Positions 18,682-24,800 of a stretch of DNA of 64,000 nucleotides are shown in pieces. Source of the DNA: Sphingomonas sp. HF-S4 (GTDB taxonomy: Bacteria; Pseudomonadota; Alphaproteobacteria; Sphingomonadales; Sphingomonadaceae). A model generated the notes under the pieces. That model did no database searches. It worked only from the letters and a program-made list of their open reading frames with translations, and was not told where the DNA came from. The DNA is taken from contig NZ_JAWJEJ010000002.1 in the NCBI RefSeq assembly GCF_032911445.1, positions 186,001-250,000 on the forward strand, written 5' to 3'. Positions within the stretch are counted from its first letter, which is position 1. Each line of letters starts with the position of its first letter. Made by a program: the position numbers and the translations under genes.

Positions 18682-18735
18682 ATGGACGGTGGAGCGCAAA
18701 TGCGCGATGAGCGTTGCATCCGAAACAATCCTTGA
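18682..18735 (+). CDS. Short upstream ORF (17 codons) with strong Shine-Dalgarno
   Basis: AAAGGAGATAA immediately precedes an ATG that opens 17 codons (MDGGAQMRDERCIRNNP) and stops at TGA, 14 nt before the ATG of the sugar dehydrogenase gene. The ribosome-binding site is better than that of the downstream gene. It could be a leader peptide giving translational coupling, or it could be chance. No family is recognised. Confidence 0.35.
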   Translation: MDGGAQMRDERCIRNNP

Positions 18736-18749
18736 AACAAGGTGACCCA

Positions 18750-19880
18750 ATGCGCCTCGTCCGCCTGATGCTCCCCGCCGCCGCGCTGCTCGCCGCGTGC
18801 AATCCCCAGACCGACGCCGTCGCACAGGAGCAGGCCGCCGCGCCCGCCGGCGCGTTGCCGTTCAAGGTTACCCCAGTCGCCGATTTCGACGCGCCCTGGG
18901 CGATCGCATTCCTGCCGGACGGATCGATGCTGGTCACCGAGAAGGCAGGAGCGCTGGTTCACCTCTCGGCCGACGGCAAGCAGAAGCAGAATTTGGCAAG
19001 CTTCCCGGTCGATTCGGCCGGACAAGGTGGGCTGATGGACGTCGTGCTCGCGCCCGATTTCGCCACGAGCAAGCATGTCTATCTGAGCTATTCGGCGGCC
19101 GGCGATGGCGGCAAGGGCGTCGTGCTGGTGCGCGGCGTGCTCGGCACCCGGGCGCTGACCGGCATCACCGAGCTCTTCCGCGCGACGCCGTTCGTCTCGG
19201 GCAACGGTCATTATTCGGGCCGCATCGCCTTCTCGCCAGACGGCAAGTATCTGTTCTTCACCAATGGCGAGCGCCAGAAGTTCGATCCTGCGCAGGATCC
19301 CAAGGCGACCCTGGGCAAGGTGCTGCGCCTGACCCCCGACGGCAAGCCCGCGGGCGATCCCGGGCTGACCGCGAAGGGCTTCCATCCCGCGGTCTGGTCC
19401 TATGGCCACCGTAACCTGCTCGGCATCGCATTCGACGCGAAGGGCAATCTCTGGGAGCAGGAAATGGGTCCCAAGGGCGGCGACGAAGTCAATCTCGTCC
19501 TGCCCGGGCGCAACTATGGCTATCCCAAGGTCTCGAACGGCAGCCATTATGACGGCCGCGACATTCCCGATCATGCGCCGGGCGACGGCTTCGAGGCGCC
19601 CAAGGTCTGGTGGAACCCGGTGATCAGCCCGGGCGGGCTGCTCGCGTATTCGGGGGCGATGTTCCCGCAATGGCAGGGCGATCTGTTCATCGGCGGGCTC
19701 TCGAGCCAGTCGCTGGTCCGCGTCGACGTCAACGGCACCAGTGCCACGAAGGGCGACCAATGGCCGATGGGCGCGCGCATCCGCGACGTCGAGCAGGGCC
19801 CGGACGGCGCATTGTGGCTGCTCGAGGATGGCGACGCCCCCTCGCAGGGCCGGCTGCTCAAGCTGACTCGGAACGAATGA
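18750..19880 (+). CDS. PQQ-dependent sugar dehydrogenase-like lipoprotein (first copy)
   Basis: A 376-aa protein with a lipobox (LLAAC, Cys17), probably outer-membrane or periplasmic. The rest is a glucose/sorbosone dehydrogenase six-bladed propeller: APWAIAFLPDGSMLVTEK, GQGGLMDVVLAPDF, YGHRNLLGIAFD, LWEQEMGPKGGDEVNLV and VEQGPDGALWLLEDG. It matches soluble aldose sugar dehydrogenases (YliI/Asd type) that use PQQ. No PQQ biosynthesis genes lie nearby. The start at MRLVRLM has AAGGTGA upstream. It is followed 41 bp later by a paralogue. Confidence 0.92.
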   Translation: MRLVRLMLPAAALLAACNPQTDAVAQEQAAAPAGALPFKVTPVADFDAPWAIAFLPDGSMLVTEKAGALVHLSADGKQKQNLASFPVDSAGQGGLMDVVLAPDFATSKHVYLSYSAAGDGGKGVVLVRGVLGTRALTGITELFRATPFVSGNGHYSGRIAFSPDGKYLFFTNGERQKFDPAQDPKATLGKVLRLTPDGKPAGDPGLTAKGFHPAVWSYGHRNLLGIAFDAKGNLWEQEMGPKGGDEVNLVLPGRNYGYPKVSNGSHYDGRDIPDHAPGDGFEAPKVWWNPVISPGGLLAYSGAMFPQWQGDLFIGGLSSQSLVRVDVNGTSATKGDQWPMGARIRDVEQGPDGALWLLEDGDAPSQGRLLKLTRNE

Positions 19881-19921: not shown

Positions 19922-21097
19922 ATGCGTGGAGTGGCTTGGCTGACGGGCGCGGCGCTGCTTGCGCTTGCAGGATGCGGCGGTGGCGGAGACGGTGGAGCAG
20001 TGGTGACACCCACGCCCAGTCCGAGCCCGAGCCTATCCCCTTCGCCGACGCCCACCGCGACGCCGATCGCCTCGGTGACCGCGACTCCGGTGGCGACGAT
20101 GGCGTCGCCGTGGGCGATGGTATTCCTTCCCGACGGTAGGCTGCTCGTCACCGAGAAAGGCGGGACGCTACGCATCGTCACCCAGGCCGGCGCCAAGTCG
20201 GCGGCGTTGGGCGGAGTGCCGGCGGTGGCGGCCAGCGGCCAGGGCGGCCTGCTCGACGTCGCGCTGCACCCCGATTTCGCGACCAACCGCCTCGTCTATC
20301 TGAGCTATGCCGAGCCCGGCACCGGCGGCGCGGGACTCGCGGTGGCGCGTGGGACGCTCACCGAGGATACCGGCGGCGCGCGGCTTACCGGCACTGTGGT
20401 GATCTGGCAGCAGGCGCCCAAGGTCGGCGGCTCGGGGCATTTCGGCGGGCGCATGGCGTTCGGCCCGACCGGGCATTTGTTCGTCACCGCGGGCGAGCGC
20501 CAGCAGGGCTCGCCCGCGCAGGACCTGAGCAAGACGCTCGGCAAGATCGTCCGATTGAACGCCGACGGGACGATCCCCGCCGACAATCCGTTCGTCGGCA
20601 CCGCCGGCGCGCGGACCGAGATCTGGTCGTACGGCCATCGCAATCCCTATGGGCTGTTCTTCGATCCTGCCGGGCGGCTGTGGGAGAACGAGATGGGGCC
20701 AGAGGGCGGCGACGAGTTCAACCTAGTCGCGCGTGGCGGCAATTATGGCTGGCCCAACGCCTCGAACGGCCAGGATTATGGCGGCGGCAACATCCCCAAT
20801 CACACCCCTGGCGACGGCTATGTCGCGCCGCTGGCCTGGTGGACTCCGGTGATCGCCCCGGGCGGCATGATCCTCTATTCGGGCACGCTGTTCCGCGACT
20901 GGCAGGGCGACGCGATCATCGCCGGGCTGGTCAGCCAGGGACTGGTGCGCGTGCGCTTCACCGCGACCAGCGCCGCCGAGGTCCAGCGCATCGCACTCGG
21001 CCAGCGCATCCGCGAAGTCGAGCAGGGTCCGGACGGCGCGATCTGGGCGCTCGAGGACACGGCGAACGGCCGGCTGCTCAAGCTGACGCCGGGTTGA
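19922..21097 (+). CDS. PQQ-dependent sugar dehydrogenase-like lipoprotein (second copy)
   Basis: A 391-aa paralogue of the preceding protein. The lipobox is LAGC (Cys19), followed by a Gly stretch and an approximately 40-residue Thr/Pro/Ser repeat linker before the propeller (ASPWAMVFLPDGRLLVTEKGG, GQGGLLDVALHPDFATN, YGHRNPYGLFFD, LWENEMGPEGGDEFNLV). The tether would hold the enzyme away from the membrane. The two copies probably arose by tandem duplication and are co-transcribed. Confidence 0.92.
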   Translation: MRGVAWLTGAALLALAGCGGGGDGGAVVTPTPSPSPSLSPSPTPTATPIASVTATPVATMASPWAMVFLPDGRLLVTEKGGTLRIVTQAGAKSAALGGVPAVAASGQGGLLDVALHPDFATNRLVYLSYAEPGTGGAGLAVARGTLTEDTGGARLTGTVVIWQQAPKVGGSGHFGGRMAFGPTGHLFVTAGERQQGSPAQDLSKTLGKIVRLNADGTIPADNPFVGTAGARTEIWSYGHRNPYGLFFDPAGRLWENEMGPEGGDEFNLVARGGNYGWPNASNGQDYGGGNIPNHTPGDGYVAPLAWWTPVIAPGGMILYSGTLFRDWQGDAIIAGLVSQGLVRVRFTATSAAEVQRIALGQRIREVEQGPDGAIWALEDTANGRLLKLTPG

Positions 21098-21194: not shown

Positions 21195-21566
21195 TCAGCG
21201 CACGATCAGATAGTTCATCCGCGCCGCGGCAATCGGGCGGTCGGGTTCGTCCTGCCAGGCGATCGCTTCGACATTGGCGACGCGGCTGCCGAGCCGGGTG
21301 ACGGTGCCGCGCGCGCGCGTCACCTTGTCGCGGCCGCCGCGCATGTAATCGACGGTCAGGTTGATCGGCTTGATCCGCCCGCCGCCCTCGGCCTCCAGCG
21401 CCTGTTTGAGCGCACCGATCGCCGCGACTTCGAGCAGCCCGCCGATGGCGCCGCCATGGAGGAAGCCGGGTCGCCCGATCACGTCCGTAGCGAACGGCAT
21501 GACCAGGGTCGGCGCGGTCTCACCCGGCTCGATCTCGAGCCCGAGCAATTCGCCATAGGGGATCAT
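21195..21566 (-). CDS. PaaI-family hotdog thioesterase
   Basis: A 123-aa single hotdog domain. The helix motif GRPGFLHGGAIGGLLEVAAIGAL carries the HGG of the PaaI/4HBT superfamily. The following NLTVDYMRGGRDKVTRARGTV is the conserved strand region. It probably hydrolyses an acyl- or aryl-CoA; the substrate is unknown. The ATG overlaps the upstream thioesterase stop by four bases, suggesting a heteromeric pair. Confidence 0.85.
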   Translation of the reverse strand: MIPYGELLGLEIEPGETAPTLVMPFATDVIGRPGFLHGGAIGGLLEVAAIGALKQALEAEGGGRIKPINLTVDYMRGGRDKVTRARGTVTRLGSRVANVEAIAWQDEPDRPIAAARMNYLIVR

Positions 21567-22067: not shown

Positions 22068-22126
22068 CGTGCGTCGGTGCCTGCCCACGCTAGCCTCGAA
22101 GCCGGGTCGAACTGGAGGAGCGGCAA

Positions 22127-22288
22127 ATGAAGCTGGTACAGATAGATCCCTCGGAAATCGTCGAACTCGATACGCAAGTGGCGATGCATGGCGCGGTCCG
22201 CGCCACCGAGGTCGCCGCAGCAGACGACCTCTTCGAGCTTCTCGTCGGCATCGCGGTGCTGATCTACGAGCTGGCCCCGGGCGGCTGA
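22127..22288 (+). CDS. 53-aa acidic peptide, putative precursor or signal peptide
   Basis: A 53-residue ORF with a perfect GGAGGAG six bases before its ATG. It begins MKLVQIDPSEIVELD, is acidic (nine Asp/Glu against two Lys/Arg), has no Cys, and ends in a hydrophobic segment ELLVGIAVLIYELAPGG. The stop lies four bases before the GTG of the next gene, so it is the first gene of a tight three-gene operon with a HEAT-like protein and a cupin-like protein. The organisation recalls ribosomally made, enzyme-modified peptides, but no transporter or peptidase is adjacent and few classic modifiable residues are present. Function unknown. Confidence 0.75.
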   Translation: MKLVQIDPSEIVELDTQVAMHGAVRATEVAAADDLFELLVGIAVLIYELAPGG

Positions 22289-22292
22289 GCCG

Positions 22293-23225
22293 GTGCAGAT
22301 CGACGGGGCGACGCGCGATGCGCTGATAGCGGCGGGATCGCGCGCCCGGGCGACGATGCAGGCCTGGCGCGAGGGGGCGGCGTTCGCGGCGGGCGTCGCA
22401 GCCTTCGCCGGTTGCGGCGATTCGCCCGGGCGCGCGGCCGACTGCGCCGAGAGGCTGCTCGAGGATGGCGACTGGGCCGCGGCGTTGCTCGCGCCGCTGC
22501 TGGTCGCGCTGGCGGCGGATCCGCTGTTCGAGCCGGCGCTCAAATTCCATCGCGATTCGATGCGCATCGGTGCCGTGGTGTTCGACTGCCCGGCGGCGTC
22601 GATCGCGGCGAGCGTGACGCGCCCGGCGCCGCCCCCGGCGACCATCGTCTTTACCGGAAGGATCGCCGTGACGCGCACGATCCGCACCGGCGGCGCAAGC
22701 TTGCGGCGCTGGCTGGCCGAGCCGATGGGCCCCGATTTCGTGGCGGCGGACGCGGGGCGCTGCAGGCCGGCGGGCGCTGTGCCACTATGCGACGGCGTAG
22801 TGCATCGCACCGATGGACGAACCGAGGCGCAACTGGTCTGCGACGCCGCAAGCGACGTGGTGACGCTGACCGCGACGATCCGCACCGGTGCGGCGTCGCT
22901 AATGCGCGAGTACGACATCGCGACCGGCGCGCTGCTGCGCGTCGCCGACGCCGACGACCGGCCGTCGCGCACTGCGATGCTGCTGCGCTTCCTGCGGGTC
23001 GCCGGACGCGCCGATGCAGGCGCATGCTTTGCAGAAGCGACCCGCGCGGAGGGTTTCCATCTGCGTTGGGCGGCGATGCGCGAATGGCTCGCGCTCGACG
23101 CGGCAGGCGCGCTGCCGCGGCTGACCGAAATGGCGTTGCGCGATTCGAACCGCGAAGTCCGCGCCGCCGCCGCCTGCATGCTTTCAGTGGTGACGAATCG
23201 GCTGGAGCAGCGATGCCCCGGCTGA
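22293..23225 (+). CDS. Uncharacterised protein with HEAT-like C-terminus
   Basis: A 310-aa protein with a GTG start four bases after the peptide stop. The N-terminal third is helical and Ala-rich; the middle (about 100-230) looks beta-rich (IVFTGRIAVTRTIRTG, VVTLTATIRTGAASLMREYD); the C-terminal 60 residues (HLRWAAMREWLALDAAGALPRL, REVRAAAACMLSVV) have HEAT-repeat character. The same layout, helices, beta-rich core then HEAT-like tail, is seen in the next gene, suggesting divergent paralogues, but an HxH pair is missing here. No known family was recognised. Its 3' end overlaps the next gene by 13 bp. Confidence 0.75.
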   Translation: MQIDGATRDALIAAGSRARATMQAWREGAAFAAGVAAFAGCGDSPGRAADCAERLLEDGDWAAALLAPLLVALAADPLFEPALKFHRDSMRIGAVVFDCPAASIAASVTRPAPPPATIVFTGRIAVTRTIRTGGASLRRWLAEPMGPDFVAADAGRCRPAGAVPLCDGVVHRTDGRTEAQLVCDAASDVVTLTATIRTGAASLMREYDIATGALLRVADADDRPSRTAMLLRFLRVAGRADAGACFAEATRAEGFHLRWAAMREWLALDAAGALPRLTEMALRDSNREVRAAAACMLSVVTNRLEQRCPG

Positions 23226-24103
23226 TCGCGCCGGGCGAGGGCGGGGCGATCGGGCTCGACGACCTGGTCGAGGCGCTCGACACGACCGCCTTCGATGCCC
23301 GCGACGAGGACAGCTTCGCCGCGCTGGGCCCGATGCTCGCGCGGCTGGGGCGCAACCCGGATTTCCTCGCCGAGCTTGCGATCGACGAATTGAAGGGGCG
23401 CTGCGAAACCCAGCATCGCGGCAACGGCTATGGCGCGCAGGTCCTCCTGCTACGCCCACCCAACGGCCGCTATGTACTTCGCGCCAATTTCTGGCCGGCT
23501 GCGGACGATCCGGTGGTGCGCGCGAGCGGCGCGCAAGCCTTCTATTACGGCCTGCCGCACGACCATAATTTCCCGTTCCTCACCTATGGCTATCTGGGGC
23601 CGGGCTATTGGAGCGACTATTTCGACTATGACGTCGACGCGCTGGCCGGGGTACCGGGCGAGGATGCCGTGCTGCGCTTCGTCGAACGTTCGCGGCTCGA
23701 GCCTGGGCGGCTGATGCTCTATCGGATGCGGCGCGACATCCACGTCCAGCTCCCGCCGGACGCCTTTTCGGTCTCGCTCAACATCCTCGGCGCCGATCCG
23801 GCCCAGCCTTGGCTCGACCAGTATCGCTTCGACATCCGCCGCGGCGTGATCGCCGAGGGCCTGACCTGTACCGGTGCCGAGGCCTTGCTCGCGCTTGCCG
23901 TGCATATCGCCAACGGCGCGGATCTAGCGACGCACTTTGCGCTGGCGCATCCGTGCGAGCGGATGCGCGTGACCGCGATCGATGCGCTCGCTTCGGCGCG
24001 GGTGCCTGGACGGATGGCGACCCTCGAACGCGCAGCGGACGCCACGAGTCGCTATGTCGCGGAACATGCACGGTTGCGGCTAACGGCGCGGACCACTCCA
24101 TAA
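23213..24103 (+). CDS. Cupin-like putative metalloenzyme with HEAT-like tail
   Basis: A 296-aa protein. Residues 70-200 appear to form a beta-barrel with an HxH pair at His116/His118 (FYYGLPHDHNFPFLTYGYLG), an aromatic-rich strand (YWSDYFDYD, 132-140), and a third His at 177 (RRDIHVQLPP). An HxH...H triad is what cysteine-dioxygenase-like cupins use to bind Fe(II). The C-terminus (AHPCERMRVTAIDALASARVPG) is HEAT-like. The ATG lies inside the previous gene, so the two are translationally coupled. The enzyme could modify the co-encoded peptide; this is inference, and a sensor role is possible. The frame is open far upstream, but the operon layout favours this start. Confidence 0.75.
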   Translation: MPRLIAPGEGGAIGLDDLVEALDTTAFDARDEDSFAALGPMLARLGRNPDFLAELAIDELKGRCETQHRGNGYGAQVLLLRPPNGRYVLRANFWPAADDPVVRASGAQAFYYGLPHDHNFPFLTYGYLGPGYWSDYFDYDVDALAGVPGEDAVLRFVERSRLEPGRLMLYRMRRDIHVQLPPDAFSVSLNILGADPAQPWLDQYRFDIRRGVIAEGLTCTGAEALLALAVHIANGADLATHFALAHPCERMRVTAIDALASARVPGRMATLERAADATSRYVAEHARLRLTARTTP

Positions 24104-24152: not shown

Positions 24153-24800
24153 GTGGCCGGAATTGTCGCTTGCGCGCTCCATATCCCGAGACTGCGCGAG
24201 GCGGCTGGCGCGCGAGGGCTCAAGCTCGTCCCCGTCGCTATTGCCGCGCTGGCGCAAAGCGGGGCGCAGGCCGCGATCGTCGGGCTCGAAGGCCGTGATC
24301 CTGCCGCGTGCGTGGCGATGGTCCGCGCGCAAGGGTGGTATGGCACGCTGATGCTCGCGCTCCCGCAGGGCGATGGTGCCAGCGTTGCGGGCGCGCTCGA
24401 CGCCGGCGCCGACGATGCGGTGGCGCTGCCTGCCTGCCCCGGCGAGATCGCCGCCCGCCTGGCTGCACGGCTTCGTGGCCAGGGGTCGGCGATACTGCTG
24501 GGACCGTTGCGTATCTACCCCGTAGCGCGGCACGTCGAGCGCGACGGTCGCGCGATGGCGCTGCTGCCGCGCGAATATGCGCTGCTGCACTACCTCGCTA
24601 GCGCTCAAGGCCGCTGCGTCGGGCGGGCCGAACTGCTCGCCGCGATATGGGGGCTGCGCTTCGATCCGGGCACCAATGTCGTCGAGGTCCATGTCTCGCG
24701 GCTGCGCGCCAAGCTCGACCGCGGTTTCGCAGCGCCGATGCTGGTGACAGAGCGCGGACGCGGATACCGATTGATCGACCCCGGCCAGGCGCTCGGCTAG
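24153..24800 (+). CDS. OmpR-type winged-helix regulator with degenerate receiver
   Basis: A 215-aa protein with a GTG start. The C-terminal half (about 115-211) is a clear OmpR/PhoB winged helix: LLPREYALLHYLASAQGRCVGRAELLAAIWG, then VEVHVSRLRAKLDRGF and LVTERGRGYRLI. The N-terminal half has receiver-like length and pattern, but the strand that should end in the phospho-acceptor Asp reads AAIVGLEG, and the conserved Lys is absent. It should therefore act without phosphorylation, perhaps by ligand or protein binding. It lies 49 bp after the cupin-like gene on the same strand and is its best candidate regulator. Confidence 0.85.
   Translation: MAGIVACALHIPRLREAAGARGLKLVPVAIAALAQSGAQAAIVGLEGRDPAACVAMVRAQGWYGTLMLALPQGDGASVAGALDAGADDAVALPACPGEIAARLAARLRGQGSAILLGPLRIYPVARHVERDGRAMALLPREYALLHYLASAQGRCVGRAELLAAIWGLRFDPGTNVVEVHVSRLRAKLDRGFAAPMLVTERGRGYRLIDPGQALG

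Follow-up and report, generated by a model that had tools for sequence, protein, structure and literature searches.

What is a short peptide gene doing directly in front of two genes for large, similarly built proteins in Sphingomonas sp. HF-S4? The stretch of DNA analyzed here (64 kb, positions 186,001 to 250,000 of contig NZ_JAWJEJ010000002.1, referred to as the window) contains such a trio, which the original prediction, made from the sequence alone, took for a peptide-modifying or peptide-sensing system. The comparisons reported below make it fairly likely that the trio is a pathway resembling those of ribosomally synthesized and post-translationally modified peptides (RiPPs), in which a peptide precursor would be oxidized by an iron enzyme working with its own dead twin; it is probably an undescribed route to an oxidized peptide. 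Between the two functions first proposed, comparative genomics favors modification, and sensing has found little support. The features discussed are the following, in window coordinates.

22114..22120, + strand: ribosome-binding site GGAGGAG, 6 nt 5' of the peptide ATG
22127..22288, + strand: gene for a 53-aa acidic peptide, putative precursor; ATG start; residues 1-23 leader-like, 24-33 a variable linker, 34-50 hydrophobic
22293..23225, + strand: partner protein of 310 aa, putative pseudo-enzyme; GTG start; degenerate thiol-dioxygenase-like cupin domain and C-terminal HEAT
23213..24103, + strand: putative 3-His iron enzyme of 296 aa; ATG start; thiol-dioxygenase-fold cupin at about 14-217, C-terminal HEAT at about 226-292
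23558..23566, + strand: codons of His116-Asp117-His118 (HxH, putative metal ligands), invariant, aligning to H87 and H89 of CDO_I-family proteins
23741..23743, + strand: codon of His177 (putative third ligand), invariant, aligning to H138 of CDO_I-family proteins
24153..24800, + strand: orphan OmpR-type DNA-binding protein (Trans_reg_C; Pfam PF00486, E 1.2e-21), 50 bp downstream of the enzyme gene

The positions, the near-perfect Shine-Dalgarno sequence, the 4-bp gap between the peptide stop codon and the partner GTG and the overlap of the partner and enzyme genes (13 nt) all match the sequence as first described, and the peptide is indeed acidic, with a computed net charge of -7. Scans for sigma-70-like promoters and for terminators found none.

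Conservation and linkage of the peptide gene

Absence of a conserved small open reading frame (ORF) in relatives had been named in advance as grounds for giving up the prediction. Such an ORF was searched for and found: peptide, partner and enzyme lie in that order on one strand in 100 of 105 loci, a count that rests on a profile made from 58 peptides of those same loci and includes five duplicates among the 105. The loci hold 100 distinct cupins. Of the five exceptions, one has an enzyme gene cut short and no partner that could be found (L076), one lies at a contig end (L072), and three have a visible small ORF that scores below the profile (L084, L085, L097). Among the other genes of these loci, a small ORF with a ribosome-binding-like site precedes 81 of 659 by one rule; the corresponding figure for partner genes, 69 of 69, is conditional, those partner starts having been picked after the peptide was found. 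The small ORF is present in excess of chance.

The enzyme search yielded 75 loci in the named-genome collection, and within the order it matched 98 of the 296 genomes searched. The peptide profile, used alone, matched 90 of the 296, all but one of them enzyme-positive, that is, 89 of 98 genomes with the enzyme vs. 1 of 198 without it. This is a strong contrast, though relatedness among the genomes inflates the Fisher value. Peptide and enzyme are no more than 3 kb apart in 87 of the 89 co-occurring genomes and on different contigs in the other two (G215 and G097), and the one match in a genome without the enzyme (G235) is weak. Among candidate database proteins the profile matches 605 of 749 (E up to 1). 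The trio occurs in two different chromosomal neighborhoods, one in Sphingomonas and one in Erythrobacter and Novosphingobium, and its linkage is therefore not a by-product of a larger syntenic block. By the counts for loci and genomes, a ribosomally encoded putative precursor conserved beside putative modifying enzymes, one mark of a RiPP system, is found here. No relative was found on viral contigs. A few genomes carry a broken enzyme or partner gene (L076, L111, L113, L115), a possible sign that some lineages are losing the system.

The alignments used below were drawn from 76 loci and contain 58 rows (A1) or 49 rows (A2 and A3). Close relatives of included rows were left out, as were seven uncalled loci (L004, L021, L027, L061, L063, L072, L076), some of which were added back by hand in A1. 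L055 was omitted from A2 and L032 from A3, their ORFs being miscalled or cut.

Two cupins, one with a putative metal site

Scans against Pfam, NCBIfam and PHROGs placed none of the three proteins in a family, apart from a weak, sub-threshold HEAT_2 match for the partner, and no CDO_I match is among those listed by Pfam for the enzyme at E up to 10. When solved structures were searched by sequence, the single protein and A3 gave nothing useful, A2 gave nothing, and A5 gave strong matches to the HEAT part only. The AlphaFold (AF2) models are confident, with pLDDT values of 92.1 for the enzyme and 94.4 for the partner. Foldseek matches the enzyme model to the thiol-dioxygenase cupin fold, and the best Foldseek and VIA matches of the partner model are likewise thiol dioxygenases.

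The HxH pair and distal His picked out by the original prediction are present in the enzyme and invariant, in 49 of 49 aligned relatives and in all 21 proteins of a much broader set. In an hhalign comparison with CDO_I-family proteins, H116 and H118 align to H87 and H89, and H177 to H138. Structure prediction and alignment thus both find what would be expected of a thiol dioxygenase, a cupin fold with the 3-His set in register, and support a putative metal site at these residues. The partner family has no invariant His. Compared through broad alignments, the partner and enzyme families match at 95.9% (hhalign, E 6e-9), so that the two are paralogues, the partner being a putative pseudo-enzyme. 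The predicted duplication, with only the second large protein keeping the putative metal site, therefore agrees with the profile comparison and with the lack of conserved His in the partner, and a common helical, beta-rich and HEAT-like layout is recovered by the two models, Foldseek and profile comparison alike. Describing the 22293 product simply as HEAT-like was right for its C-terminal part but missed the thiol-dioxygenase-like cupin domain that makes it a putative pseudo-enzyme.

The enzyme shares its cupin fold and the register of its three His with the cysteine, 3-mercaptopropionate and mercaptosuccinate dioxygenases (CDO_I), but it has an additional HEAT domain, and its operon also encodes a peptide and a paralogue that is a putative pseudo-enzyme. 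The Ser-His-Tyr motif of thiol dioxygenases, known as the "SHY motif" (PMC10966181), is not kept: its position is Ser188-Asn190-Leu192 in the window enzyme, and S188 and N190 are invariant in the 21 proteins of the broader set. ADO and the plant cysteine oxidases are thiol-dioxygenase-type cupins that act on proteins with an N-terminal Cys (PMC8503633); the fold is alike, but the peptide family here has no conserved Cys. SbzM of altemicidin biosynthesis is likewise a cupin oxidase, with unusual cascade chemistry on free L-cysteine (PMC6331615), but with no precursor peptide. Among RiPP enzymes, PbsQ is a cupin-like hydroxylase of a biphenomycin-like pathway, related to a JmjC-domain protein and working with an MNIO and a B12 radical SAM enzyme (PMC12257519). 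No pseudo-enzyme twin is mentioned for it in the available sections of its description. In MNIO (DUF692) systems, such as those for methanobactin, 3-thiaglutamate and the bufferins, a small precursor is encoded with an iron oxygenase and a partner gene and dedicated to it (PMC12452194), whereas here enzyme and partner are paralogous cupins. No Pfam match to DUF692 was found, and the models are cupins and not TIM-barrels. MNIO enzymes are TIM-barrel proteins with multinuclear iron. The nearest parallels are the MNIO-plus-partner RiPPs and PbsQ, neither of which has this fold pair as far as the accessible parts of their descriptions go. Searches of the open-access PMC literature turned up no account of a thiol-dioxygenase-type cupin that, together with a HEAT partner, acts on a precursor peptide, which does not establish absence in print.

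Peptide anatomy and divergent relatives

The leader-like block of the window peptide comprises residues 1-23 and ends in G22-A23. The family pattern is roughly ID..[IL]P.LD...G..G[SAT], and the window version is IDPSEIVELDTQVAMHGA. All 58 peptides have G22, with S, A or T as the next residue, and in all of them the most hydrophobic 12-mer begins in the C-terminal half; Cys occurs in just four, none of it conserved. Ten Sphingomonas copies (45 pairs) have a mean ratio of nonsynonymous to synonymous differences per site (pN/pS) of 0.49 (pN 0.20, pS 0.43), with differences in excess at the third codon position (887, vs. 534 and 395 at the others). By block, pN in Sphingomonas is 0.22 for residues 1-13, 0.17 for 14-23, 0.41 for 24-33 and 0.09 for 34-50. 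Such a low, high, low series is what a leader, linker and core might produce, or equally a small protein with two contacts. Two conserved blocks around a variable linker are thus seen in Sphingomonas, and the bipartite arrangement is clearer in outgroups (L177; L121, L154, L167 and L168).

These outgroups come from searches with divergent enzymes, which reached other alphaproteobacteria as well as genomes that belong to the phylum but not to the class; divergent relatives are also found on plasmids of Alteromonas stellipolaris and a Vibrio. Twenty-one divergent loci were examined with their flanks, counting L163 and L164 as one and leaving out L153, which lies at a contig end, and L144, whose match is confined to the HEAT part. 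A small ORF lies beside the enzyme-partner pair in 18 of the 21, the ORFs having been chosen by eye, mostly for a ribosome-binding-like site. Among 44 enzymes placed in a midpoint-rooted tree, L123 and L177 form a pair (0.97) that lies next to the main sphingomonad clade (0.93), and L106 and L107 are sphingomonad second copies outside it.

Double-glycine peptides are exported by C39-ABC (ATP-binding cassette) or MacB-type systems. Canonical double-glycine leaders are found in the small ORFs of L121, L154, L167 and L168, while the G-A after the leader block of the window peptide merely resembles that motif. Exporters adjoin other loci. L177 has a MacB-type ATPase and permease, three tandem peptides, partner, enzyme and a second ABC ATPase; its peptides have an N-terminal I...[IV]P.L...V in common and differ in the remainder, and hhalign aligns their N-terminal block with that of the peptide family (59.8%, E 8.8e-5). 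L123 carries genes for Yip1, a HlyD-type protein and a MacB-type ATPase and permease, then two small ORFs and the partner and enzyme genes, and an ABC ATPase and an ABC2 permease. In L163/164 (G1272:C1:345519-360845), three enzyme-partner pairs lie within about 15 kb, with several small peptide ORFs (directly upstream in one of the three copies) and genes for Yip1, HlyD-type and MacB-type proteins, for an ABC ATPase and for an ABC2-like permease whose match is weak. L178 has an HlyD-family protein and MacB-type genes in divergent orientation, and L108 a Peptidase_C39 ABC transporter with HlyD. The absence of a linked transporter, part of the original prediction, thus holds for the main sphingomonad clade but not for the whole family.

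Two further features of these loci were seen by eye or in passing. L167 and L168 have a large gene resembling a nonribosomal peptide synthetase near the double-glycine peptide, partner and enzyme, and the small ORFs beside the divergent pairs of L179 (7710-7841) and L181 (2601-2732) repeat a M[LP]PPQ[ND]Q-like motif, a possible repeated-core precursor.

On the lanthipeptide, lasso and radical SAM enzymes said to be absent in the original prediction, the analysis covered a scan of the window for the CxxxCxxC motif, which gave one match, judged by eye to lie in the upstream extension of a peptidase ORF. Genes named by eye upstream of the trio include two small adjacent thioesterase-like ones (21195-21566 and a reverse-strand ORF ending near 21563), of which those directly upstream are in opposite orientation, and two similar tandem sugar-dehydrogenase-like genes (18714-19880 and 19922-21097).

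Weighing the possible roles

In the RiPP-like pathway favored here, the 53-aa product would be made on the ribosome as a precursor, its leader-like N-terminal block joined by a variable linker to a hydrophobic C-terminal block. The enzyme would bind Fe(II) through H116, H118 and H177 in its thiol-dioxygenase-type cupin and use O2 to oxidize the peptide bound to it. The partner, a duplicate that lost its metal site, would be obligate, perhaps presenting the substrate or stabilizing the enzyme. In some divergent relatives the product would leave through C39- or MacB-type ABC systems, for which no linked genes are seen in the main sphingomonad clade. The metal, the catalysis, the peptide as substrate, its cleavage, the product and its role are all what we infer from these comparisons. 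Since the peptide lacks a conserved Cys and the enzyme has a changed Ser-His-Tyr motif, C-H hydroxylation or another side-chain or backbone oxidation seems likelier than thiol sulfination, and hydroxylation or another C-H oxidation of the precursor would be our guess. Tandem precursors, double-glycine leaders and exporters in some divergent loci favor a peptide-modifying system.

A number of observations weigh against this proposal. Nine enzyme-positive genomes have no peptide match, several of them with another small ORF in its place, and three of the 21 divergent loci (L124, L178 and L180) have no small ORF directly upstream, L124 having one of 59 aa downstream. ABC exporter genes adjoin only five of the 21, and in none of the loci examined do an ABC exporter and a canonical double-glycine leader occur together. 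As originally noted, no ABC transporter was found in the window by motif scan, nor is there an ABC motif in any of the 105 main-clade loci, 34 of which are shorter than 5 kb. A search of the strain's own genome for a cognate C39-peptidase ABC exporter found only what is, judged by eye, an RTX-type ABC transporter near an HlyC-like gene (L122, G000:C1:1232215), with no recognizable catalytic Cys; this sole Peptidase_C39 (PF03412) match scores 24.8 bits against a cut-off of 22. The link of the enzyme family to four CDO_I-family proteins is modest (hhalign, 38.8%, E 3.2e-4), and that between enzyme and partner is weak when the close family is used alone (8.8%). Divergence of the peptide is tied more closely to that of the enzyme (partial r 0.53) than to that of the partner (0.19), and such slight coevolution with the partner beyond that with the enzyme leaves partner-mediated leader recognition unsupported. 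The presence of Cys in 4 of 58 peptides would also allow a thiol substrate elsewhere, and the strong conservation of the putative core in Sphingomonas would allow a fixed structural role.

The next most probable explanation gives the peptide a structural or regulatory part as the third subunit of a hetero-oligomeric dioxygenase, which would act on a small-molecule thiol or other metabolite while the peptide itself would never be modified. The enzyme has the fold of thiol dioxygenases that act on small molecules, the most conserved part of the peptide in Sphingomonas is the putative core, the main clade has no linked exporter, and the trio's neighbors in Erythrobacter and Novosphingobium are housekeeping genes (by eye, argH, lysA, ruvX, lepB, acpS, pdxJ and pyrE). 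Loss of the Ser-His-Tyr motif does not fit such an enzyme, however, nor do relatives with tandem precursors that diverge in their C-terminal halves, double-glycine leaders and exporter neighbors, and on balance a peptide that is only such a subunit seems rather unlikely.

Less probable still is an oxygen or redox sensor comparable to ADO and the plant cysteine oxidases, the enzyme oxidizing the peptide or a Cys protein whose state is read by the DNA-binding protein at 24153. Conserved as a neighbor in the Sphingomonas branch, this Trans_reg_C protein (cluster c16) follows the trio in 23 of 76 loci and is missing from Erythrobacter and Novosphingobium among the rows listed. Its association with the trio is uncertain, the peptide has no conserved Cys, and a sensing function consequently has little support. 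That the small ORF is translated but functionally trivial, tuning translation of the partner, might be read from the 4-bp gap and the strong ribosome-binding site before a GTG-started gene, but amino-acid conservation across 100 loci and several genera and the related tandem copies in L177 largely refute it, making it very improbable. The name "transposase," carried as a source name by 14 of 120 listed homologues of the cupin enzyme (by eye), is likely a propagated misannotation, and a mobile-element gene can be dismissed given the stable neighborhoods around the trio, the cupin fold and the lack of any Pfam or NCBIfam transposase match at E up to 10.

The pathway in which the peptide is oxidized can be stated more specifically, though only tentatively and at a little under an even chance: a new RiPP class in which an iron enzyme of thiol-dioxygenase fold and its dead paralogue, each with a HEAT domain, would form a heterodimer that oxidizes a Cys-free hydrophobic core. 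It would spread between proteobacteria in exporter clusters, one of them on a plasmid, and in sphingomonads would have become fixed as a chromosomal operon without an exporter, its peptide serving a housekeeping or signaling role. The lack of a linked exporter and the conserved C-terminal block in sphingomonads do suggest a fixed cellular role.

If this is true, a new enzyme fold would join the oxidative toolkit of ribosomal peptides, with an enzyme that uses its own dead duplicate as a partner, and the exporter-linked relatives would be ready test systems for it. A function would also be suggested for a family so far called "transposase" or hypothetical that is present in about a third (98/296) of the sampled genomes of the order.
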